From a virus: DNA of 23,004 bases. Under the pieces are notes generated by a model that did no database searches, was not told where the DNA came from, and saw only the letters and a list, made by a program, of their open reading frames with translations. The position numbers and the translations under genes were made by a program. This document shows, in pieces, positions 13,026 to 22,080 of this stretch; position 1 is the stretch's first letter, and the number at the start of each line of letters is the position of its first letter. The stretch lies in IMG/VR virus record IMGVR_UViG_3300031977_001327, positions 1 to 23,004 of that record, one strand, 5' to 3'.

Positions 13026-13066
13026 ATCAATCATTGATTGACATATCGTCAAACAACAATTAAAAG
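13026..13066. promoter_or_regulatory. Divergent promoter region with operator palindrome
   Basis: The palindrome TTGAC-ATATC-GTCAA lies at 13038-13052. Its left arm is part of a consensus -35 box (TTGACA, 13038-13043) for the plus-strand gene at 13097, with TAAAAG (13061-13066) as a -10 at 17-nt spacing. Its right arm read on the other strand gives TTGACG, a possible -35 for the minus-strand genes starting at 12989. The candidate -10 for that direction, GATAAA, is weak. A second perfect inverted repeat, ATCAAT-C-ATTGAT (13026-13038), abuts it. The same TTGAC-N5-GTCAA is found at 18875, and with one mismatch at 15854. Confidence 0.6.
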
Positions 13067-13096
13067 AACTTTATAACTAACAAAGGAGAAAATCAA

Positions 13097-13609
13097 ATGG
13101 TTTTTATTTATAACAAAGACAGCTTTGATAATTCAGTTGAAGTTGATAACTACCCTTGGGGATTTAAAAAAACTAGTAAAAGATTTTGGTTAGAAACTAA
13201 TAAAAAAGGTACTAGATTAGTTTCTTCAACTAAAAATCCAAAGAACGGTGAATGGTGTAAACCAAAAGCTTCTACATATTCTCAAGTTGGTGTTTTAACT
13301 TCAGAAGAAAAAGATGGTAAAAACTTTATTTCTTGGACAGGTCTTTCAATTTATGCAAGTGATAAAGAAATAGTTGAATTTACTAGATCAGTAGATGTTC
13401 AACAATTACCAAAAGAAGCACAAAAAAAGATTTGTTTTCTTAAAGCTAAAAATCATGCTTGGAAAGGTGTAAAAGTTGAATTTGTTGCAAACCCAACACC
13501 AGAACAATCTCAAAAATTAAAAGAAAACAAAGAAAAAGCTGATAAATACTTAGCGGCTGTAGGCAATCAAGCCTATAATACTTGTTTAATCAAAAATAAC
13601 TTAAATTAA
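13097..13609 (+). CDS. Lone plus-strand gene of unknown function (moron-like)
   Basis: This 170-residue protein has no family I recognise. It is soluble, with no signal peptide or membrane segment. The first two thirds look beta-rich and aromatic (YPWGFKKTSKRFWLETN; NFISWTGLSIYAS; HAWKGVKVEFVA), followed by a Lys/Glu-rich helix near residues 137-152. It is the only plus-strand gene between 1 and 15949. It has a good AAAGGAG ribosome binding site and its own -35/-10 pair under an operator palindrome. GC-rich hairpins follow its stop. A single gene with promoter and terminator, inserted against the direction of its neighbours, is the classic layout of a moron. Such genes often act in the lysogen or in phage-phage conflict, but no specific role is visible. 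Confidence 0.85.
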   Translation: MVFIYNKDSFDNSVEVDNYPWGFKKTSKRFWLETNKKGTRLVSSTKNPKNGEWCKPKASTYSQVGVLTSEEKDGKNFISWTGLSIYASDKEIVEFTRSVDVQQLPKEAQKKICFLKAKNHAWKGVKVEFVANPTPEQSQKLKENKEKADKYLAAVGNQAYNTCLIKNNLN

Positions 13610-13998
13610 CCCTCAATAACCTCGGGAGCCTTTGGCTCCTGGGGTTTTCCCCAACTAATAGTCAAAGTATTATCAGATTTAACTTCCTGTTTAATTTTAT
13701 CTCCAAATATTCCACTAGCTAACTTTGATGCTAACCAACGTGCATGATGCGCTAGTTCTCGAGTCTGTTGAAAGTATTTTGGGTCTTGAGGTTTACTTAA
13801 CATCTCATGGATTTGGTCAAGGATAGTGAAAGTTCCTACCTCTCTTGCTTTCATAATTTGTTTATGAAATTTATCGTCATCTCTCATTTTACGATAAACA
13901 ACTGATAATGATGGATAGTTCTTATCCTTACATATTTCAGTTAAAGTTTTACCGTTCTCAAGCTTCTCTATAATATTTTCTGTTTTTTCTAATTGCAT
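13606..13998 (-). CDS. terS: Terminase small subunit
   Basis: This 130-residue protein has the typical small-terminase N-terminal helix-turn-helix. GKTLTEICKDKNYPSLSVVYRKMRDD is followed by FHKQIMKAREVGTFTILDQI, matching the Terminase-small-like pattern (LxxICxxxxxPSxxTVYRWxxxDxxFxxxYxxAR). The helical middle (TRELAHHARWLASKLASGIFGDK) fits the oligomer core. It recognises the packaging site and works with the large subunit. It is separated from terL by about 1.6 kb holding other genes and a repeat-rich gap. Its stop overlaps the stop of the convergent gene 13097-13609, and it overlaps the preceding gene by 41 nt. Confidence 0.88.
   Translation of the reverse strand: MQLEKTENIIEKLENGKTLTEICKDKNYPSLSVVYRKMRDDDKFHKQIMKAREVGTFTILDQIHEMLSKPQDPKYFQQTRELAHHARWLASKLASGIFGDKIKQEVKSDNTLTISWGKPQEPKAPEVIEG
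13625..13652. terminator. Two adjacent GC-rich hairpins at the convergent gene end
   Basis: GGAGCC-TTT-GGCTCC (13625-13639) is followed at once by GGGGTTTTCCCC (13641-13652). They lie 15-43 nt after the stop of the plus-strand gene and inside the 3' end of terS. The GC-rich arms stand out in an AT-rich genome. A terminator-like or RNA-stabilising role for the plus-strand transcript is likely. A classical U-run after the first hairpin is missing, apart from the TTTT loop of the second. Confidence 0.5.
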
Positions 13999-14218
13999 CT
14001 AAAATATACTCATCTGTTTTGTTTTTATATTGTGGTAAGTTTTTTAGAGATTTCAACTGTCCTTCAAGTGTAGTTGGACCCGTAGACATCCCCGCATGAT
14101 ACTTGCAACGATAATGACCTGTCTTCATCAAATTACCCTTGCACCGACAGCGCACCGTAAACTTAGAACCCCTGGTGTAACTCTCACATTGCTTTAGTAG
14201 TTTGTTACGACCAGGCAT
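13958..14218 (-). CDS. HGGxSTG-domain-like small protein
   Basis: This 86-residue protein contains CKYHAGMSTGPTTLEGQLKSL. It matches the phage HGGxSTG motif (CxxHGGxSTGPxTxEGxxR) with Ala in place of one Gly. Before it lies a Cys/Arg cluster (VRCRCKGNLMKTGHYRCKYH), possibly a zinc site. Proteins of this type are common next to small terminase genes, and their role is not established. Its 3' end overlaps the start of terS by 41 nt, so the two are expressed together. Confidence 0.75.
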   Translation of the reverse strand: MPGRNKLLKQCESYTRGSKFTVRCRCKGNLMKTGHYRCKYHAGMSTGPTTLEGQLKSLKNLPQYKNKTDEYILDAIRKNRKYYREA

Positions 14219-14269
14219 ACCACATATAGTTTATCATTTTTTATAAGTTTTTTTTAAGTTTAGCAAGCA

Positions 14270-14824
14270 TTAGGCTAATTTTTTAGTTTTTTTTTTAATC
14301 TCTCCAGTTACCTTATCTTTTGTGTAATCGTTCCCGTCAGAACCTCGAAACTCATCCAGCATCCCCCAGGATGCGTGGTATTTTAATTTAATACCTTTAA
14401 ACTCAATATCCTTATTCTGGCTTGGCAAGAAGGGTGTATTCGAAGAATAGCTATTTCCATATTTATAATTGCTATATGGTTTAATTACTTTGGTTTTATT
14501 AATACTTATAATATTTGATAACTCAGAGTTATAAAATTTGATAACTCTGGAATTTGTTAATAACTTCTCTTGTATTGGTAGCTTATATTCAAGCGTAGAT
14601 TGTTTTCTTTTAGTCTGGATAATATTAAGCTTTTTTAGTCTGGCAATGGAACGGTAAACGGTGAGTTTAGAAAGTCCAACCCTGTCTGCTATCGTCTGAA
14701 CTCGGGGATAACAAACCTTAGTCTTACGATTATAAAAACTAACCAAACCAAAATAAACCAACTTATCAGAAGGTGTCAGTTTAGAGCTTTTTAATATACT
14801 CTCATCCGCTACAAAGAAACTCAA
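14270..14824 (-). CDS. Winged-helix DNA-binding protein, HTH_36/replication-initiator type
   Basis: The N-terminal half carries KLTPSDKLVYFGLVSF, then CYPRVQTIADRVGLSKLTVYRSIARLKKLNII, a helix-turn-helix of the HTH_36 type found in plasmid and phage replication initiators and related regulators. The C-terminal half is low-complexity and Lys/Asn-rich, ending in a short Lys tail. The start I prefer is TTG at 14824. A GGGGG ribosome binding site lies 7 nt before it, and the TTG overlaps the upstream TGA (TTGA). A GTG at 14848 is possible but has its AAAGG site too close. No polymerase or helicase gene lies in the window, so this is the best replication-initiator candidate, though a transcription regulator is equally possible. 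Confidence 0.75.
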   Translation of the reverse strand: MSFFVADESILKSSKLTPSDKLVYFGLVSFYNRKTKVCYPRVQTIADRVGLSKLTVYRSIARLKKLNIIQTKRKQSTLEYKLPIQEKLLTNSRVIKFYNSELSNIISINKTKVIKPYSNYKYGNSYSSNTPFLPSQNKDIEFKGIKLKYHASWGMLDEFRGSDGNDYTKDKVTGEIKKKTKKLA

Positions 14825-15213
14825 AACGGTACCCCCTTTAAAACACACCCTTTAACGTGTCTCTCCTGTATCAGTTTTAGCATCTTTATAAATTCTGGAG
14901 GGTTCATTACCCTCAGCTCGCTTTCGGCAGGTGTGAGCTTCTTAATGCGAAATTGGGTAACTTCATCATGTTTGGAACCAGGAGTGTAAAACACAAGATA
15001 TGCAGGTACTTTACAAGCTATTGCAATTTTCTCGGTAACTGTGGTAGTCTTATAGGTTTGTCCTTTATCAACCGCGGTTTCAAACATAGCCAACGGTTCC
15101 TGGCATTTTTGACAAATCTCGATAAAATCCAGGTCTAATCCTGCCAGACCATCGAACCTTCTGTGAAATTCGCTAAAATGATCGCCAATATTAAAATAAT
15201 TGTAGCGCGCCAT
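14821..15213 (-). CDS. Unknown protein, possibly nuclease-like, with CxxC
   Basis: This 130-residue protein has an arrangement that resembles a small nuclease core: LDLDFIEICQKCQEPLAMFET (about residues 25-45), then KTTTVTEKIAIACKVPAYLVFY (about 55-76), then a basic C-terminal part. Asp/Glu residues in the first strand pair, Glu45 and Lys55 could form a PD-(D/E)XK-like site, and CQKC could bind metal. This is pattern reading and I cannot name a family. It lies between a coiled-coil protein and the winged-helix protein in the repressor-to-terS operon. Its start shares a TAATG with the upstream stop. Confidence 0.7.
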   Translation of the reverse strand: MARYNYFNIGDHFSEFHRRFDGLAGLDLDFIEICQKCQEPLAMFETAVDKGQTYKTTTVTEKIAIACKVPAYLVFYTPGSKHDEVTQFRIKKLTPAESELRVMNPPEFIKMLKLIQERHVKGCVLKGVPF

Positions 15214-15392
15214 TAAAGTCCATTTTTTCTTAAATCTGTTAATTGTGAATTGATTTTGTTAGTTAGCTCCTCGATAGCTTTATCCTTATGATCTATGATC
15301 TTTTTTAATTCATTGACCTCTTTATCCTTAATTAAGTTTTCTTGTTTTAAATCATCAGATTTAGTTTTATTAAGATGATTTTTTGTACTCAT
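15213..15392 (-). CDS. Small coiled-coil protein
   Basis: This 59-residue gene runs from ATG at 15392 to a stop at 15213. The product (start MSTKNHLNKTKSDD) is very rich in Lys, Glu, Asp, Asn and Leu, with heptad-like spacing through residues 16-55, so it is almost surely a coiled coil. Its start overlaps the end of the upstream 90-aa gene by 23 nt, and its stop forms TAATG with the next gene. This tight coupling is the main reason to accept it. Its function is unknown. Confidence 0.65.
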   Translation of the reverse strand: MSTKNHLNKTKSDDLKQENLIKDKEVNELKKIIDHKDKAIEELTNKINSQLTDLRKNGL

Positions 15393-15642
15393 ATAATACC
15401 TCCACTTTTATGATTACAGAATTAGGAATAACATTTCGATTGCCTACCTCAGTCCCTTCTGTATCTGTGGACCAATCAGAACAAATCACAGTATTTTTTT
15501 TATTTTTTTCGATAATAAACCCCGTGCTATAGCAAACAGCAACATTATCTTTTTTAGCTGCATCAATATTTTTCCAATCATTAAATGCACAAATATCTTC
15601 CCAGGTTATTAGAACAAATTTTTTAGGTTTAAATTTATTCAT
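15370..15642 (-). CDS. Small phage protein with WEDI start, unknown function
   Basis: This 90-residue protein has the segments KKFVLITWEDICAFNDWK, then VAVCYSTGFIIEKNKKNTVICSDWS and VIPNSVIIKVEVLYEY. I have seen this layout (V-x-WEDI, then a G-(F/Y)-(I/L)-x-E strand and an IP segment) in many small phage proteins of unknown role, mostly in early or lysogeny regions. It overlaps the repressor gene by 8 nt, so it belongs to the same transcript. Confidence 0.7.
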   Translation of the reverse strand: MNKFKPKKFVLITWEDICAFNDWKNIDAAKKDNVAVCYSTGFIIEKNKKNTVICSDWSTDTEGTEVGNRNVIPNSVIIKVEVLYEYKKSS

Positions 15643-15832
15643 AAAAATCTTTGATCGTTACCTTATTTTTAGTAGCTGTTTTTATTTTATCTAACATTGA
15701 TTTTCTTGGAATACGCGAACCAGTACACCAACGATGAACGGTTGAAGATGAAGTTTTATTTTTTAAACCAATCAAATCAGCCAATTGCTTATAAGTTAGT
15801 TTTTTTGTTTTTCTAAATTTATCTAATTGCAT
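15635..15832 (-). CDS. Cro/CI-type XRE repressor, DNA-binding domain only
   Basis: This 65-residue protein is one helix-turn-helix domain: KLTYKQLADLIGL (helices 1-2), SSSTVHRWCTGSRIPRKSMLDKI (recognition helix and after), and VTIKDFYE, which resembles the end of Cro-type proteins. No cleavage or dimerisation domain follows. It is transcribed away from the early block, and a palindromic operator overlaps its promoter, so it probably represses itself and the early genes, as in lambda-like switches. The likely start at 15832 has almost no leader (see the promoter entry), so translation may be leaderless. Confidence 0.85.
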   Translation of the reverse strand: MQLDKFRKTKKLTYKQLADLIGLKNKTSSSTVHRWCTGSRIPRKSMLDKIKTATKNKVTIKDFYE

Positions 15833-15840
15833 TAAAATTG

Positions 15841-15871
15841 CTTATAGTCATATTTGACAGTTTGGCAAATA
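15841..15871. promoter_or_regulatory. Repressor promoter and operator in the divergent switch region
   Basis: A 21-bp imperfect palindrome lies at 15851-15871, with 8 of 10 base pairs symmetric: arms TATTTG and CAAATA, inner CA/TG. Its core is TTGAC-N5-GGCAA, one mismatch from the perfect palindromes at 13038 and 18875. On the minus strand TTGCCA (15863-15868), 16 nt, TATAAG (15841-15846) form a good sigma70-type promoter pointing at the repressor gene. The start point would fall within about 2 nt of the ATG. On the plus strand TTGACA (15854-15859) is a perfect -35 box without a clear -10. A protein bound here would block both directions. Confidence 0.65.
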
Positions 15872-15903
15872 AATAAAAATACACCTAAGAATAGTAATTT
15901 TTA

Positions 15904-15949
15904 ATATTAATGTTTACATGATGTTCTACAATAGTTAGTTGTTCGTTCA
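15904..15949 (+). promoter_or_regulatory. Candidate early promoter before the plus-strand block
   Basis: A near-consensus -10 box TACAAT lies at 15927-15932, with only weak -35 matches 16-18 nt upstream. A small palindrome ACATGATGT (15916-15924) is just before it. The start point would be about 10 nt before the ATG at 15950, which has no visible ribosome binding site, so a leaderless or near-leaderless mRNA is possible. The early promoter could instead use the TTGACA at 15854. Confidence 0.35.
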
Positions 15950-16258
15950 ATGGATTTAGATAAAAAATTAAAAAATATTCTAAAAAAATCTAACATTGAA
16001 ACAGAGCTGCCAGAATGGTCTAAGTTCTACAATTGGAACCATCACTCACCTTCACAAATTAATTTAAATGATGATTTATTTTGTTTTAAATATTTTTATT
16101 TAACAGACAAAGATAGAGCTGATTTTAAACCTAATGCAAAAATGGTTGCAGGTGCAAACATTGGTCAAGCAGTAGCACAAATATTTGCAAAGAAAATTTA
16201 TAACAGAAACAAAAAACAATTCTTTAAAACAGAGGAAACTAAATTCGATGACAGTTAA
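15950..16258 (+). CDS. N-terminal half of a split PD-(D/E)XK nuclease
   Basis: This 102-residue product contains WNHHSPSQINLNDDLFCFKYFY and AKMVAGANIGQAVAQIF. These resemble the first two blocks of RecB/Cas4-type phage exonucleases (SxSxxxxxxxCPxxxxY and a Gly-rich helix). The catalytic D...ExK lies in the next gene, which starts 11 nt before this stop in the +1 frame. Either the two halves form one enzyme from two chains, ribosomes shift frame, or one base has been lost or gained. No ribosome binding site is visible before this start. Confidence 0.65.
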   Translation: MDLDKKLKNILKKSNIETELPEWSKFYNWNHHSPSQINLNDDLFCFKYFYLTDKDRADFKPNAKMVAGANIGQAVAQIFAKKIYNRNKKQFFKTEETKFDDS

Positions 16259-16913
16259 CAAAGAAGAAATATTTAAATTAGCAACTGAAGCTTATAATAC
16301 TTACAAACCATTAAATGAATTTGATGGCTATGAATACAATAGTAACAAAGAACATTTATTAGATGTATTAAAACAAACTATACAAGGTATTGAAGAAATT
16401 GGATTGTCAGGCAACATATTAGCAGAGAAACCAGTTAAATATAAATTTACTGGCTGTGTTCTTCCAGTATCGGGTCAAATAGATTTATGTGATGATACAA
16501 AGTTTATTGAAATTAAAACCAAATGGAGAAAAAGAACTGGTAAATATAAATCAGACGGCACCCCAAGTATGAGTATCGTAAAACCCAACCCATTTGATGA
16601 TTATTTTTTACAAACTGCCTTCTATTATTTTGCAACTAAACTTGAACCACACTTATTAATGGTCAATGAAGATAGCTATAAAATTTATAACAAAGAAAAT
16701 TGTCCTCAACTTCAAGAAGATAATTTAAAAAGAATAGCACTTAAAATCAGACAAACCTGTTTAAGAAGGGAGCGCCTGGCGGAGCGACACTCTGGGACCC
16801 ACAATTGGACAGAAGATGTAAATTTAGATTTAAGTAATTTTAAATGGGATGATGAACACAAACCAGTAGCAGAGCAATTATGGAACGAAAACCTTTTAAC
16901 ATCTATCAAATAA
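16248..16913 (+). CDS. Catalytic half of a split PD-(D/E)XK exonuclease
   Basis: From the ATG at 16248 this is a 221-residue protein. The nuclease signature is seen as LPVSGQIDLCDD, then FIEIKTKWRKRTGK: the Asp of GQID and the Glu-x-Lys of EIK bind metal and catalyse. It is followed by FDDYFLQTAFYYFATK, the usual Q-x-x-x-Y helix. Such RecB/Cas4-like nucleases in early phage operons make single-strand tails for the annealing protein, which is encoded 170 nt downstream. The open frame extends upstream to a TTG at 16185, but the ATG overlapping the previous stop (ATGACAGTTAA) is the likelier start, with AGAGGA 11 nt before it. A GC-rich stretch encodes part of the C-terminal region (16767-16801). 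Confidence 0.75.
   Translation: MTVNKEEIFKLATEAYNTYKPLNEFDGYEYNSNKEHLLDVLKQTIQGIEEIGLSGNILAEKPVKYKFTGCVLPVSGQIDLCDDTKFIEIKTKWRKRTGKYKSDGTPSMSIVKPNPFDDYFLQTAFYYFATKLEPHLLMVNEDSYKIYNKENCPQLQEDNLKRIALKIRQTCLRRERLAERHSGTHNWTEDVNLDLSNFKWDDEHKPVAEQLWNENLLTSIK
16767..16801 (+). repeat. GC-rich island with palindromic core inside the nuclease gene
   Basis: About three quarters of the bases in this 35-nt stretch are G or C, against about one third around it. It contains CGCC-T-GGCG, two GGAGCG copies and GGGACCC. It encodes an Arg-rich segment (RRERLAERHSGTH) without breaking the frame. A small palindromic insertion is one explanation, and a conserved DNA site is another. Confidence 0.5.
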
Positions 16914-17077
16914 ATTTATTTAAAAACAAATATAATTTTGGTAAAAACAAAATTAGAGCCAACAGCAAGATTATAGTTTTTTCATTTGCTATAATCTTTT
17001 TGCTCCCTCTGTTAGTTAACTTTGGCTCTGATCTGTGGGATATTGCATCTTTCCTTTTCAACAATGTCCCACAGTAA
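16880..17077 (+). CDS. Possible small membrane protein overlapping a structured element
   Basis: The 65-codon frame encodes a basic N-terminal part and one hydrophobic segment (KIIVFSFAIIFLLPLLVNF, about residues 29-48), then an amphipathic end. It overlaps the nuclease gene by 34 nt and has no clear ribosome binding site. Two large hairpins (16952-17074) cover its second half, and its stop follows the last hairpin base directly. It may be a true single-span membrane protein, or the frame may be incidental to a non-coding element. Confidence 0.4.
   Translation: MERKPFNIYQINLFKNKYNFGKNKIRANSKIIVFSFAIIFLLPLLVNFGSDLWDIASFLFNNVPQ
16952..17074. other. Double-hairpin element upstream of the annealing-protein gene
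   Basis: Two large inverted repeats abut each other. The first spans 16952-17032. Its outer arms AGAGCCAA (16955-16962) and TTGGCTCT (17022-17029) extend by three more pairs, one a wobble. Its inner 10-bp stem AAGATTATAG (16967-16976) / CTATAATCTT (16989-16998) is joined by AGC/GCT. The second spans 17033-17074, with arms CTGTGGGATATTG (17033-17045) and CAATGTCCCACAG (17062-17074), 13 bp with one G-U pair and a 16-nt loop. The ATG of the annealing-protein gene is 9 nt further on. Confidence 0.7.
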
Positions 17078-17083
17078 CTTATT

Positions 17084-17677
17084 ATGAATATAACTCCCAA
17101 ACAATACTTAGAAAATTTAATCAATAACAAACAATGCTATGATTTAGATAATGGCAAAGTTGCTTTGTATCATAAAGATATAGAACACATGGCAGCATAC
17201 TTTGATATATCTGTTGATGTAGATATTAAAACTGCAGACGGTAAACTTAGATTTGCAATTTGTAAAGCAACTGCAATTGATAATTCTAATAACAGAAAAT
17301 ACTCTAGCCTTGGTGAAGCGCATCCAGATACTAATGGTTTTGAATACTTTGTAGCAGTTGCAGAAAAGAGAGCTGTAGATAGAGCTATTTTAAAAGCGCT
17401 GCACTTGCATGGAGATGTATTATCTTTTGAAGAATTAGATTTAAGAAACAAACCTAAAAAACAATCAGTTCAAAAAACAACTGAACAACCAAAAGTTAAA
17501 ACTTTAACAGAAGAAGTAGAACAAAAAATTTTAAAGTCTAAAGACAAAGAAAGTTTTACCAAGAACTTAGGAAAGTATGCAAACTTTCTTGAGCAATTGT
17601 TAAAAGAAAATCCTGGTTATGCAAATAAATTGCTAGAAAAAATCCAGGTGAAACAACAACAAATGGAGGACAAATAA
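17084..17677 (+). CDS. Putative single-strand DNA annealing protein (Rad52/ERF-like)
   Basis: This 197-residue protein has the segment SLGEAHPDTNGFEYF followed by AEKRAVDRAILKALHLHGDV and SFEEL near residues 75-120. It resembles the core of phage single-strand annealing/ERF-type recombinases (GEA...AEKRAxDRAxLKxxxLxGxVxSEEE). The C-terminal third is a Lys/Glu/Gln-rich helix, probably a flexible tail. It lies between an exonuclease and an SSB-like protein, which makes a red-type recombination cassette. The start has no clear ribosome binding site and lies 9 nt after a 13-bp hairpin, so its translation may be controlled by that structure. It ends in a TAATG junction. Confidence 0.65.
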   Translation: MNITPKQYLENLINNKQCYDLDNGKVALYHKDIEHMAAYFDISVDVDIKTADGKLRFAICKATAIDNSNNRKYSSLGEAHPDTNGFEYFVAVAEKRAVDRAILKALHLHGDVLSFEELDLRNKPKKQSVQKTTEQPKVKTLTEEVEQKILKSKDKESFTKNLGKYANFLEQLLKENPGYANKLLEKIQVKQQQMEDK

Positions 17678-17973
17678 TGTCATTTAATCCAAAACCAGGC
17701 TATGTCTGTTCGTTTTCTATGATGAAAAATCCTAAGAAAACTGAAGACAAACATCCAGACTTAGTCTTAGTCAACCACATGTCTAAAAAAGGCAATATGG
17801 TTCCTAAGAACTTTACCATTAAATTAAATGGTCAAGACGTTTGGTGTCAAGCATCAGCCTACAAACAAGAAGATGGTTCAGTTAAAATTACAATAACTGA
17901 AACAGACTCTTTAAAGAAACCAGGTTTTGCGCCTAAGCCACAACAAGCGGCTGCAGCGGAAGACTTTATTTAA
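17677..17973 (+). CDS. Possible single-stranded DNA-binding protein
   Basis: This 98-residue protein has a beta-rich body (YVCSFSMMKNPKK; FTIKLNGQDVWCQASAYKQEDGSVKITITE), then a Pro/Ala/Gln-rich linker, and ends AAAEDFI. A compact beta domain, a flexible linker and an acidic-hydrophobic tip is the general plan of SSB proteins (bacterial SSB ends DDIPF). The body is short for a classical OB fold and I do not recognise the family, so the name is tentative. It has a strong GGAGG site and a TAATG overlap with the annealing-protein gene, which supports a joint role. Confidence 0.55.
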   Translation: MSFNPKPGYVCSFSMMKNPKKTEDKHPDLVLVNHMSKKGNMVPKNFTIKLNGQDVWCQASAYKQEDGSVKITITETDSLKKPGFAPKPQQAAAAEDFI

Positions 17974-17975
17974 AT

Positions 17976-18188
17976 ATGAAATACGGTTTAACTCCAGTAC
18001 ATCGTAAAGTTTATGAGTGGATTAAATCGTATATAGAAAAGCACGGGTATGCGCCGTCTTATGATGAGATCAAGGTGGCGCATAATATGAAAACCAGATC
18101 ACACGTTCACAAAGTTATTGAAAATTTAGAGAAAAGAAAATGGATAACCAAGATACCAGCGACAGCCAGAAGCATAACCATCCTTTAA
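17976..18188 (+). CDS. LexA-type winged-helix domain without protease part
   Basis: This 70-residue protein matches the N-terminal DNA-binding domain of LexA: LTPVHRKVYEWIKSYIEKHGYAPSYDEI, then MKTRSHVHKVIENLEKRKWI and ARSITIL at the end. Full LexA is about 200 residues, and the self-cleaving serine protease domain is absent here. It could act as a non-cleavable regulator or compete for host SOS boxes. It starts 2 nt after the SSB-like gene and overlaps the DUF3310 gene by 49 nt. The frame is intact and ends naturally, so it is not a decayed remnant of a larger gene. Confidence 0.85.
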   Translation: MKYGLTPVHRKVYEWIKSYIEKHGYAPSYDEIKVAHNMKTRSHVHKVIENLEKRKWITKIPATARSITIL

Positions 18189-18394
18189 AAAGTTTAGAAA
18201 CCCAAGAAGGTGGAACACATTATCAAGGCTTTGTCATTCAGCCTGCAGAATATATTGTAAAAAATAAATTAACTTGGCTAGAAGGTAATGTTGTAAAATA
18301 TGCGTCTAGACATAAAAATAAGAATGGCGCACAGGATATTAAAAAAGCTATACAATGCTTAAAAATCATACTAGAAATAGAGTATGGTGAATAA
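18140..18394 (+). CDS. DUF3310 (SaV-like) protein
   Basis: This 84-residue protein has the DUF3310 pattern: GGTHYQGFVIQPAEYI, then LTWLEGNVVKYASRHKNKNG and AQDIKKAIQCLKI. This family is common in phages and is sometimes annotated as a nucleotide kinase, but its biochemical role is not settled. The start overlaps the LexA-type gene by 49 nt. The first 24 residues are hydrophilic and outside the domain. The end overlaps the next gene by 11 nt. Confidence 0.9.
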   Translation: MDNQDTSDSQKHNHPLKSLETQEGGTHYQGFVIQPAEYIVKNKLTWLEGNVVKYASRHKNKNGAQDIKKAIQCLKIILEIEYGE

Positions 18395-18653
18395 ATATGT
18401 AAAGAAATGGGAATACGAATGTAGTGTTACGTTTGAAGTAACCGACAAATCAGTAGAAACATTAGCTTTAATGAAAAATCCACCAGACAATGCTAACTGT
18501 ATTGTAGACCCCAAAGACTTGAGGTTTATTAAATCTACCGTGAAGGAGGTAAAGCAGGTTGCAAACAATGTATCAAAAACTGACAAAAGAGATACAGGAG
18601 ACGGAAAAACAAAGAAAAAATCTTTTGTCGAAGATAAGCAGGCAAAAAAATAA
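18384..18653 (+). CDS. Small unknown early protein
   Basis: This 89-residue protein starts at an ATG overlapping the DUF3310 stop (ATGGTGAATAA). Residues 1-60 look folded (KKWEYECSVTFEVTDKSVETLALM; CIVDPKDLRFIKSTVKEV). The last 25 are Lys/Asp-rich and disordered. Its 3' part overlaps the next gene by 95 nt in another frame, and the low-complexity tail may be shaped by that overlap. No family recognised. Confidence 0.6.
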   Translation: MVNKYVKKWEYECSVTFEVTDKSVETLALMKNPPDNANCIVDPKDLRFIKSTVKEVKQVANNVSKTDKRDTGDGKTKKKSFVEDKQAKK

Positions 18654-18759
18654 ACTGGGTGAATATCCAGTAAATGCTTTAGCCATTGCTAAACAAGCTA
18701 ACGATAAGTTAGTTAATATAGTCCAGCTGCAGGACCAAAGAAAACAACTAGAATACTAA
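18559..18759 (+). CDS. Small coiled-coil protein with overlapping start
   Basis: This 66-residue protein (KLTKEIQETEKQRKNLLSKI and following) has heptad-like Leu/Ile spacing and is probably a coiled coil. A near-consensus AAGGAGG site lies inside the upstream gene at about 18544, 9 nt before a TTG at 18559. An ATG at 18568 is the alternative start. The strong site is the main evidence that this overlapping frame is translated. No family recognised. Confidence 0.6.
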   Translation: MQTMYQKLTKEIQETEKQRKNLLSKISRQKNKLGEYPVNALAIAKQANDKLVNIVQLQDQRKQLEY

Positions 18760-18933
18760 GTTTTCTTAAATAGTAGCACACAACTTGTAAAACTTCTTTT
18801 ACTTGCTAAGGGTCCTTTACACTTTTTTCAAAATAATCTGTAACATTAGTTGATAAAACAATCACAGATACCTGTTGACTAAATGTCAATAACTATGGTA
18901 CAAGCAAATCAACTAATAAAGGAGCAAAAAAAA
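18760..18933 (+). promoter_or_regulatory. Intergenic promoter with operator palindrome
   Basis: The perfect palindrome TTGAC-TAAAT-GTCAA lies at 18875-18889. Its left arm is a -35 box (TTGACT), with TACAAG (18899-18904) as a -10 at 18-nt spacing. Transcription would start near 18911, which supports the ATG at 18934 as the start of the next gene. Earlier in the gap there is a weak AT-rich hairpin GTAAAA-CTTC-TTTTAC (18788-18803). The operator is shared with 13038 and, with one mismatch, 15854. Confidence 0.6.
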
Positions 18934-19167
18934 ATGAACATACACAAACAAAAACCAAATGTTAATGCTTGTGAGTATTGTGGTACTGCTTTTAATAAAG
19001 ACCAAAATACTTACGGTGGTATTTACTGTAACATTGAATGTGCTGCTCATAGAGGAGTTAGATACGGTTACAATAATTTAGTTGAAAAATTTGATGCAAT
19101 CAAAGTTTCTGATTGGAATGAAAAAATTTTTCCAATGTCTAAATATGAAAAAGCGAGAGGAGTATAA
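18934..19167 (+). CDS. Small zinc-finger-like protein
   Basis: From the ATG at 18934 this is a 77-residue protein with CEYCGTAF and YCNIECAAHRG, a C-x2-C plus C-x3-C pair that probably binds one zinc ion. The frame is open upstream to 18883, but AAAGGAG lies 9 nt before 18934 and the predicted transcription start is downstream of 18883. The rest of the protein is hydrophilic. It is the first gene of an operator-controlled transcript that leads through two genes to the integrase. No family recognised beyond the zinc pattern. Confidence 0.7.
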   Translation: MNIHKQKPNVNACEYCGTAFNKDQNTYGGIYCNIECAAHRGVRYGYNNLVEKFDAIKVSDWNEKIFPMSKYEKARGV

Positions 19168-19656
19168 ATGTCAGCAAACTTAAAAATAAAAAATATAAAA
19201 GTAATACATGCTGCGTTCGAAGATAAACCAGTACACATTGCTAATTATAAATTATCAACTTCAGACCAAGTATTTATGGGTGTTGGTAAATATACAACTA
19301 AAGATGTATTGCAAAATGTTTGGCAAGGTACACAAAACATCGAAGACAGTTGGAGTAATCCAGATGCAATTGGTGTTGAGTATGACTACAACGTAGACAA
19401 GTTAGAAAATGTTGAAGTCTTAAAACCTTTAAAAATTATTAAAGGCAAAGCTTATGGACACAGAAGTACAAGTGTTGGTGATTACATGATTGTTCAATAT
19501 CAAGATTTAAATGTTGAGTCTTTGTATATGTGTGAGCCTGCAGGTTTTTCACTTAAACAAAGTAATCATGGAGCGCCTATAAACTTAACCGATTGTGAAT
19601 GTGGTTTAGTTATGGGTTCAGAACGTGCAGCTAAAATCAAAGCAAAAAAATCGTAA
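19168..19656 (+). CDS. Unknown protein with HRSTSVGD motif
   Basis: This 162-residue protein starts 1 nt after the previous stop with a GAGAGGAG site. The segment KAYGHRSTSVGDYMIVQ near residue 95 resembles an R-S-(M/T)-S-V-G-D block known from several phage and mobile-element proteins of unknown role. The C-terminal part ends in a Lys-rich tail, and Cys residues in LTDCECGL may bind metal. The body looks beta-rich. It forms a TAATG junction with a tiny membrane protein gene. Confidence 0.7.
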   Translation: MSANLKIKNIKVIHAAFEDKPVHIANYKLSTSDQVFMGVGKYTTKDVLQNVWQGTQNIEDSWSNPDAIGVEYDYNVDKLENVEVLKPLKIIKGKAYGHRSTSVGDYMIVQYQDLNVESLYMCEPAGFSLKQSNHGAPINLTDCECGLVMGSERAAKIKAKKS

Positions 19657-19754
19657 TGAAAAAAATAATTTATTACATCTTAGGTTTTGTAGCTGCTGAA
19701 GTAATGATTGTTACATTAGCAATGTTAATTTTACATACATGGTCTATTCAATAA
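19656..19754 (+). CDS. 32-aa single-span membrane peptide
   Basis: This short gene runs from an ATG at 19656, overlapping the previous stop (TAATG), to a stop at 19754, 16 nt into the integrase gene. The product starts MKKIIYYILGFVAAE and is hydrophobic through residue 27, so it should form one membrane helix with a positive N-terminus. Its position between two coupled genes suggests it is translated. No function can be given. Confidence 0.5.
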   Translation: MKKIIYYILGFVAAEVMIVTLAMLILHTWSIQ

Positions 19755-20788
19755 GAAAAAACGGAAACAAATACAAAGTATACGATGAGGGTCGAAAGAC
19801 CCTCGCGTCATTTGATACTAAAGAACAGGCTATCGCCTGGACAACCAAGCCAAGCACTATAGATTTTACACAAGCTTTTAATTTATTTAATCAAAATATA
19901 GATAATCAAGTAAACAATGGAATAATTAAGAAACATACAGGACAAAGATACCAAGAAATCGTTTCCTGCCACATACAACCCCTTATTTTAAACATCCCTA
20001 TAAATACATACAAGTATTCAGATTTCTTAAACAACTACCTTGTAAAGCTCTCTATGGCGGTTTCTCAGACCACTATGCAGCCATTGTCAGCCAAAACTTA
20101 CAAAGATGTAATTGCGGTCTTTAGAATGGTTATAAAGTATATACGAGACCTAGATTATGATATTGGAGATTGTATTAAAATATTAGAGTACCGAACCAAG
20201 GTGCCTGCTAATAAAAAAAATATAATTAAAAATGAATTTTATACAACAAGCTCTGATGCTAAATTATTAATTCAATCAGAAACTAATTTAAAATATAAAA
20301 CTTTATATTGTTTAGCTTTAGTCTCTGGAGCCAGAACCAATGAGCTGCTTGCTGCTTGTTATTCTAATTTTAAAAATAATACCTGGACCATACAAAATAC
20401 TTTAGACAATGATAATGTATTTGAACCAGGGTCAGTTAAGACTATTGCAGGATATAGAACAGTAGATATTACCCCAGAACTCAATACACTTATTAAAAGT
20501 TTAAAATTATTAAATTTATCTCAAGATAGATTATTCGATATTTCTAAAAGCCAAGTTAAGTACCATACGCAAAAACTTGCAGCATCAATTGGTATCGCCT
20601 GGCAAGGTGGATTAAGTCCATTTAGAAAACTATCTTCTAGTTTAGTCTTCGATAGCAATGTCTTATCTGAAAAAGAGTTCAGAGATAGATATGGTTGGGA
20701 AGACTTAAAAACATTTAGGAAGTATTACCAAAGACAAACTAGAAACAATGCTAGAGTTGATGGTATATTTAACAAACTGCTTAACTAA
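19739..20788 (+). CDS. int: Tyrosine-recombinase integrase
   Basis: This 349-residue protein is a phage integrase. It has an N-terminal arm domain (about residues 1-35), a core-binding helical domain (about 40-155) and a catalytic domain after 165. Catalytic features seen are Arg199 in SGARTNELL, Lys234 in SVKTIAGYRT, Arg296 in LSPFRKLSSS, Trp320 in YGWEDLKTF and the nucleophile Tyr329 or Tyr330 in FRKYYQR. The usual His of the H-x-x-R box is Ser293 here (SPFR), which is unusual. It should recombine phage and host attachment sites. No tRNA-like att core was recognised. A short hairpin lies in its early coding region (19787-19804). The start overlaps the upstream peptide gene by 16 nt without a clear ribosome binding site. 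Confidence 0.9.
   Translation: MVYSIRKNGNKYKVYDEGRKTLASFDTKEQAIAWTTKPSTIDFTQAFNLFNQNIDNQVNNGIIKKHTGQRYQEIVSCHIQPLILNIPINTYKYSDFLNNYLVKLSMAVSQTTMQPLSAKTYKDVIAVFRMVIKYIRDLDYDIGDCIKILEYRTKVPANKKNIIKNEFYTTSSDAKLLIQSETNLKYKTLYCLALVSGARTNELLAACYSNFKNNTWTIQNTLDNDNVFEPGSVKTIAGYRTVDITPELNTLIKSLKLLNLSQDRLFDISKSQVKYHTQKLAASIGIAWQGGLSPFRKLSSSLVFDSNVLSEKEFRDRYGWEDLKTFRKYYQRQTRNNARVDGIFNKLLN
19787..19804 (+). other. GAAA-tetraloop hairpin inside the integrase gene
   Basis: GAGGGTCGAAAGACCCTC is a 7-bp perfect stem with a GAAA (GNRA) tetraloop. It begins 48 nt after the integrase start codon and covers codons 17-22. It is much more GC-rich than its surroundings. It is too far from the start to block initiation directly, but it could affect mRNA stability or bind a protein. 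Confidence 0.55.
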
Positions 20789-20797
20789 AGGAGACTT

Positions 20798-21148
20798 ATG
20801 GCAGAAAAAATATGTAGACACTTACCTTATGATAATGAGATTTGTACCAAACTAATTGGTGCGACCGCATATAATCTAAAAAAGTTTAGATTAGAAAAAG
20901 GTATGACACAAATGAGACTAGCAGATAAGCTTAGTAATTATTTAGGTCAAAGATATTCATATCAACAAATACAAAAGTATGAGTCTTTAAATGAAAACAA
21001 AAACAAAATACCATTAATTGTTGGATTTGCTTTTGCTAAGATACTCAATAAACCTTTGGAGTCTTTTTTCATTAGCAAACAAGAACAAGATAATGCTGTT
21101 ATTTTTGCAGGTGAATTAAAACCAAAACAAGAAAACATTAGTGAATAA
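20798..21148 (+). CDS. Second XRE-type regulator
   Basis: This 116-residue protein has a central helix-turn-helix domain (about residues 23-85): YNLKKFRLEKGMTQMRLADKL, then YSYQQIQKYESLNENKNKIP, and FAFAKILNKPLESFF, the usual XRE layout with a Q-x-Q-Y-E recognition helix. A short extension before and a 25-residue tail after carry no protease motif. A clear AAAGGAG site precedes the ATG, 9 nt after the integrase stop. Being cotranscribed with int, it may control integration/excision or the early block. Confidence 0.88.
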   Translation: MAEKICRHLPYDNEICTKLIGATAYNLKKFRLEKGMTQMRLADKLSNYLGQRYSYQQIQKYESLNENKNKIPLIVGFAFAKILNKPLESFFISKQEQDNAVIFAGELKPKQENISE

Positions 21149-21443
21149 AAAAAAAGAACCAGTATTGTATGTAGGCAATTGCCATTACTGCAATAAAAGT
21201 TTGTATTCTAATACGGGTGGGTGGATAGCTAGTCCAAAGTTTAAACCTACCCGTGTGATTAGACACTTTTGTCATAATGGTAAAGATGGCAGCTGCTTTG
21301 ATATATATTGTAATTTTATAAATGATTTAAAAATAAATGCTGAGATAGCGCATGTGAATACCATGGAAACAGACTGGCAAAACAGACTACCTTATAAACA
21401 AATGATTGAGGAATTTTTGAAAAAAGGAAAACATGATACTTAA
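21141..21443 (+). CDS. Small Cys/His-rich protein, possible zinc binder
   Basis: This 100-residue protein starts at GTG 21141, overlapping the XRE gene by 8 nt. It has CHYC (residues 14-17), then RHFCHNGKDGSC and a further Cys in IYCNF, consistent with one zinc site. The part after residue 65 is helical. It overlaps the HNH gene by 11 nt. No family recognised. Confidence 0.65.
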   Translation: MNKKKEPVLYVGNCHYCNKSLYSNTGGWIASPKFKPTRVIRHFCHNGKDGSCFDIYCNFINDLKINAEIAHVNTMETDWQNRLPYKQMIEEFLKKGKHDT

Positions 21444-22080
21444 AGATTATATTAAGATAAATCCTAATTTTCCAATACTACAAAAAACTAAAGTGTGCTT
21501 AGATTGTAAAAAAAGAAAATCTATTTTTTTGTATGATTATAGACACGATACTAAAAAATTAAAAAACCAATGTCATCGTTGTGTAAGTATAAAAAAATTA
21601 CAATGGAAAAGAAACAATAGAGATAAAGTTTTAAAAGGTAGTCGTGCAAGATATAAAAAATTTAAAAAAGAAATTTGTTATAGAATGTCTACAGAATATT
21701 ACATTAAAAATAAAAAGTTTGATGTATTAGAAAGAAAAATACAAAGAGGTAAAAATCATTATCAAAATAATAAAACTTATTATTCAGTAAAGAGCGCCAA
21801 ACAAAGAGCTAGAAAAAAACTACGGGTATTTCCTAAAGGTGTGGAGTGTAAAGAAGTAATGGCAATCTATAAAAAAAGAGATGAATTAAATAAAAAATAT
21901 GGATTTAAAAAATATTCAGTTGACCATATAATTCCTTTAAAACATAAATTTGTTTCTGGTTTACATGTAGCAAATAATTTACAAATATTAACTACAACAG
22001 AAAATTTACAGAAAGCTAATAAATTTATTCCAGGACACAATGAAGCTTTTTACAATACCAAGTATTGGAAATATATTTAG
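21433..22080 (+). CDS. HNH endonuclease
   Basis: This 215-residue protein has an N-terminal zinc site (C22-x2-C25 and C47-x2-C50), a long Lys/Arg/Tyr-rich middle and a C-terminal HNH nuclease domain. The domain reads FKKYSVDHIIPLKHKFVSGLHVANNLQILTTTENLQKANKF, with DH followed by the N of NNL and a closing Asn/Lys block. It may be a free-standing homing-type nuclease or a functional early endonuclease. Being the last plus-strand gene and convergent with late genes, it sits at a common insertion place. Its stop overlaps the stop of the next, minus-strand gene by 4 nt. Confidence 0.88.
   Translation: MILKDYIKINPNFPILQKTKVCLDCKKRKSIFLYDYRHDTKKLKNQCHRCVSIKKLQWKRNNRDKVLKGSRARYKKFKKEICYRMSTEYYIKNKKFDVLERKIQRGKNHYQNNKTYYSVKSAKQRARKKLRVFPKGVECKEVMAIYKKRDELNKKYGFKKYSVDHIIPLKHKFVSGLHVANNLQILTTTENLQKANKFIPGHNEAFYNTKYWKYI

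Follow-up and report, generated by a model that had tools for sequence, protein, structure and literature searches.

The closest described systems for this comparison are the lambdoid CI/Cro operators, represented by OR and OL of lambda and by the operators of 434 and P22. The DNA studied here is the 23,004-base viral contig IMGVR_UViG_3300031977_001327, the complete record of which is referred to as the window. Its portal protein is 59 to 62% identical over the full length to those of HTVC010P, Greip, and HTVC024P, and it has a regulator gene divergent from a nuclease gene, a layout common to the window and the isolates Skadi-1, HTVC203P, and HTVC034P. Judged from the homologous portal and this gene layout, the window phage belongs with the HTVC010P-type pelagiphages. 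Integrase-bearing relatives of HTVC010P are already known, and passages of Mizuno et al. 2013 (PMC3861242) tie some of these contigs to SAR11 by integrase and att. The window also carries an integrase gene, which is one mark of a temperate phage: it codes for a tyrosine integrase of 349 amino acids (aa) (19739..20788, plus strand; phrog_1 integrase, 2.6e-23) that is 83 to 99% identical within the window clade. The phage is probably temperate, of an ocean type related to SAR11 viruses. Querying genomes, one per species, with the integrase revealed no related integrase and no prophage or host, an absence that is weak evidence in such a set; an alignment search of genome contigs found no relatives either, and no tRNA gene was found in the window. 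Two further genes were recorded: an endonuclease VII/HNH-like gene (21433-22080; phrog_1035, 9.5e-10), which is absent or strongly diverged in relatives, and a gene (17976-18188) for a 70-aa protein that consists of the LexA DNA-binding domain only, lacking the LexA peptidase part (Pfam 3.9e-11), and is kept in all 11 window-clade contigs tested.

Three copies of the palindrome TTGAC-N5-GTCAA lie in the window where the earlier note had placed them, all on the plus strand in the orientation given. Operator 1 (TTGACATATCGTCAA, 13038..13052) is perfect and is flanked by packaging/structural genes running leftward and by the lone rightward gene at 13097; Operator 2 (TTGACAGTTTGGCAA, 15854..15868) has one fixed mismatch and separates the leftward cro gene from the rightward nuclease operon; and Operator 3 (TTGACTAAATGTCAA, 18875..18889), again perfect, is upstream of the transcript leading to the integrase and to XRE116, a 116-aa XRE protein. 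No further copy with 0 or 1 mismatch exists in the 23,004 bases, as had been read by eye, and a scan of the whole record for perfect copies agreed with that of the window. The sites are all intergenic, as claimed: two listed open reading frames overlap them (starts at ATG 18883 and TTG 13052), yet better starts are present behind A/G-rich stretches, at 18934 and at about 12990. About 0.02 copies had been expected, and 1,000 dinucleotide shuffles gave a mean of 0.027 perfect copies, with two perfect copies in 1 of the 1,000. The statement that the copies are unlikely by chance holds in that such pairs are rare in shuffles, but the motif was chosen post hoc, and a fairer figure is the 9% of shuffles in which some N5 palindrome recurred whose 5-bp arms included at least two G/C. 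Given this post hoc choice and the comparable finds in 9% of shuffles, the window on its own is no more than suggestive, and we regard conservation in relatives as decisive for the reality of a shared site.

Viral contigs supplied relatives of Cro, XRE116, and genes 13097 and 19168. All three sites recur, promoter for promoter, in nine contigs (the window, L002, L020, L021, L024, L025, L027, L028, and L047), among which Cro is 78 to 100% identical. The scan of relatives proposed earlier yielded 21 perfect N5 copies in 12 clade contigs (159 kb), a sample that is partly redundant, with some contigs near-identical and those inside each group related rather than independent; the remaining spacers between 0 and 15 gave zero perfect copies in the same 159 kb. 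The arms do not vary at any site; the spacers differ among contigs at sites 1 and 2, and the flanks vary more. The arms of Operator 1 are unchanged in nine contigs while its spacer, flanks, and downstream gene change; the GGCAA mismatch of Operator 2 is fixed (12/12 contigs); and Operator 3 is conserved in 12 contigs, its spacer being invariant in the clade. The distant contig L029 has a counterpart of Operator 3 with another spacer, TTGACAAGTTGTCAA, upstream of the XRE116 operon, and this site is perfect, while its cro-proximal site is degenerate (TGTTTTCGTTGTCAA). Conservation across the clade contigs strongly supports the idea that a shared operator joins the three promoters. One-mismatch N5 copies, TTGAGGTTTAGTCAA, were also seen within the small-terminase gene of L002 (820-834) and L041 (2652-2666), probably by chance.

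Behind Operator 1, the gene at 13097..13609 (plus strand) encodes a 170-aa protein with no assigned function and zero Pfam or PHROGs matches; it is swapped or strongly diverged in L020, L021, L024, L025, and L047, in all of which Operator 1 is kept. The first rightward early genes, the nuclease region at 15950..16913 (plus strand; 15950-16258 and the overlapping 16185-16913), share synteny with a gene that is annotated as a putative nuclease and runs divergently from the regulator gene in Skadi-1, HTVC203P, and HTVC034P, and they have tblastn matches in phages carrying Cro homologues of intermediate distance (L048-L075, the intermediate phages). The first gene behind Operator 3 (18934..19167, plus strand; start 18934 likelier than 18883) is found in some relatives and missing from others. 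Two stretches, window 13097-13609 and 18934-19656, look like exchangeable slots in which the operator and promoter are constant and the genes differ among contigs. Homologues of the 13097 gene elsewhere have GAAC-N7-GAAC about 115 bp upstream (L004-L009, L011, and L013-L017). Of 14 loci that do not belong to the window clade, 12 had this element, compared with zero when six control spacers were used, and it resembles the alphaproteobacterial LexA box; a 13097-type gene may be under SOS control in other contigs and under operator control in the window clade.

The earlier note named the 65-aa Cro-type protein as the likely binder, and distant homologues of this protein support that choice. Cro65 (15635..15832, minus strand; HTH_3, 2e-6) matches PHROGs transcriptional regulators, and its structure model (pLDDT 86) has five helices. 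The fold matches of the model include C.Csp231I controller-operator complexes, SinR-DNA, and P22 c2 with its operator, at probabilities of 0.92 to 1.00, yet with E values of at least 0.29. A search that used aligned distant Cro homologues as the query returned 80 loci, of which 77 were analysed; the best TTGAC/GTCAA fit upstream of cro, about 35 bp before the gene, had a spacer of 7 in 74 of these 77 loci (27 perfect, 47 with one mismatch). The remainder of the 684 kb held 19 perfect N7 copies versus 5 of all other spacers, and in L140, L164, L189, and L193 extra N7 copies occur before a nuclease-like gene beyond a CI-like gene. Since N7 copies precede cro in distant Cro homologues, the half-site tracks the Cro family. 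The half-sites are equal in the N5 and N7 groups, but the spacing is 2 bp apart, which counts against Cro65 as the binder. The spacer length could not be assigned to the loop after the recognition helix, as L194 combines a long loop with N6. In the regions read of isolated HTVC010P-type phages, the Cro homologues of which are about 32 to 39% identical, the perfect motif is absent; nor does an N5 or N7 copy precede cro in the intermediate phages, or such a site occur in Rhizobium phage RHph_Y25 and Mesorhizobium phage vB_MseS-P1, which have distant Cro homologues. In most of the longer intermediate contigs a TTGCCAATAAG element precedes cro and is repeated about 900 bp upstream, and in L054, L056, L057, L070, and other intermediates this upstream copy is inverted and lies beyond the CI-like gene; the element is perhaps the diverged operator of this group. 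As a separate observation, the cro start codon is placed 8 nt past the TATAAG −10 box (window 15832-15868), with a similar arrangement in close relatives, and because the start codon sits only a few bases past the −10 box, the cro mRNA may be leaderless.

Two points that the earlier note lacked are the absence of a CI-like gene beside cro and the prospect that XRE116 may share the sites. In the sister and intermediate phages, a CI-like HTH protein of about 205 to 229 aa is encoded between the nuclease gene and cro (33/33 intermediate loci tested, L060 being an example). A search for this protein in 11 window-clade contigs gave zero matches, and the gap between cro and the nuclease gene in the window measures just 117 bp. 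The CI-like proteins that were tested gave no Pfam hit to a peptidase domain, and for this reason we do not claim induction by cleavage. XRE116 is encoded behind the integrase gene and under Operator 3 (20798..21148, plus strand), with HTH_3 and Pou hits slightly under the Pfam cut-offs. It is found in the window clade and in L029, with a few weak tblastn matches elsewhere. For the distant XRE116 match L116, the motif is absent from the 800 bp of upstream sequence that was read. XRE116 may act on the same sites, since the N5 spacing is seen solely in phage groups carrying it, and we consider it a candidate both for second binder and for replacement of CI.

From these data, we think it likely that a single dimeric Cro/CI-type regulator uses the palindromes as its operators; Cro65 is the best candidate for this regulator, and XRE116 possibly shares the sites. 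The roles may be reversed, with XRE116 acting as the main binder, a lysogenic repressor made on the same transcript as the integrase behind Operator 3, and Cro65 binding weakly or elsewhere. Besides the restriction of N5 to its carriers, this would fit a recognition helix (SYQQIQKY) that is invariant, L029 included, even at 37% overall identity, and the fact that the only perfect site of L029 lies ahead of the XRE116 operon. Matching half-sites are nonetheless found at the cro promoters of many phages lacking an XRE116 match, and Operator 2 adjoins cro rather than XRE116, so that we hold this arrangement to be unlikely.

The arms could also be −35 boxes that face each other in a pair of overlapping divergent promoters, with no protein operator involved, given that TTGAC is the −35 consensus and that sites 1 and 2 are located between divergent genes. 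Each left arm had been called a −35 box, and this is plausible, with TAAAAG, AAATAC, TACAAG, and the TATAAG of leftward cro at 16 to 18 bp; the −10 boxes are weak, however, and none of the three promoters came up in a consensus scan. At Operator 1 the promoter would read TTGACA-17-TAAAAG and at Operator 3 TTGACT-18-TACAAG, while at Operator 2 the GGCAA arm corresponds, on the complementary strand, to the cro −35 box TTGCCA, with TATAAG 16 bp on in the window and 16 to 17 bp on in the sequences read. Paired −35 boxes alone do not account for an N5 spacing that each contig repeats unchanged at three different promoters and that has no alternative from 0 to 15 in the 159 kb, for a sister group fixed on N7 with one exception at N6, or for site 3, behind which there is no leftward gene; we judge them a very improbable explanation. 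Equally, the phage might have borrowed the site of a host regulator, since phages are known to use such regulators and 13097 homologues in other contigs stand behind the LexA-box-like element. The motif, however, tracks the phage Cro lineage, its spacing shifts with the phage regulator group, and the isolated phages that lack it in the regions read grow mostly on Pelagibacter HTCC1062 (the host of the window phage may differ), which leaves a host protein scarcely plausible. Chance combined with the shared ancestry of recently diverged contigs, for which the 9% of shuffles would speak, can be practically discounted, being already contradicted by arms that did not diverge when flanks and downstream genes did and by a separate N7 family with identical half-sites at the equivalent place.

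If the palindromes are operators of Cro65, a dimer bound at each of the 15-bp sites would lie over the −35 box of an early or lysogeny-related promoter, with which each operator overlaps in our reading, and would block RNA polymerase. We infer that three units would be held down together in this way: gene 13097, the nuclease/recombination operon with cro, and the integrase/XRE116 transcript. With the fixed imperfect arm at cro, autoregulation would be weaker than the repression exerted on the other two units. XRE116 might share the sites and stand in for the CI missing beside cro, and both proteins may bind, like CI and Cro in lambda. A further-reaching proposal, which we put forward tentatively and with some doubt, is a CI-less lysogeny switch, in which CI was lost and XRE116 of the integrase transcript took its place at an operator of altered spacing (N7 versus N5); integrase and repressor would then be made and shut off jointly via Operator 3, with Cro65 acting on the same three sites.

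The window resembles the lambdoid phages in having a small Cro-type HTH protein encoded divergently from the early operon, palindromic operators over the elements of divergent and remote early promoters (as read from the sequence), and an operator at the regulator's own promoter. It differs in its single operators, which in lambdoids come in groups of three, in their length of 15 bp with N5, in an operator before the integrase transcript with XRE116 behind the integrase, and in lacking a CI-like gene adjacent to and divergent from cro. Because the adjacent CI gene is missing, we regard the window system as a variant of the lambdoid Cro/CI set. The Mizuno et al. 2013 (PMC3861242) contigs are likewise integrase-bearing, and the passages concerned describe no repressor operators; in the limited library searched, no operator was described for this phage group. 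The HTVC010P-type pelagiphages (HTVC010P, Greip, Skadi, HTVC203P, and HTVC034P) share the portal and the divergent regulator/nuclease layout but have no perfect motif copy in the regions read, and searches with the integrase, XRE116, and gene 13097 gave zero matches in the phage collection. Sister marine phage contigs (L030, L109-L113, and L120-L194) have a homologous Cro with the half-sites before cro, further motif copies at other promoters, and a homologous small terminase (L112); unlike the window, they show N7 spacing, a CI-like gene, and a longer loop after the recognition helix, and an XRE116 match was not found in them. Early, integrase, and accessory genes thus appear to be jointly controlled in the window phage with no CI-type repressor gene beside cro. 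The analysis yields a testable operator, a likely protein for it, and a jointly controlled gene set that includes an exchangeable accessory-gene slot. Together with its relatives, the window forms a natural series, from CI with N7, through no CI with N5, to isolates devoid of the motif, in which the loss of a CI repressor and the re-spacing of an operator could be traced.
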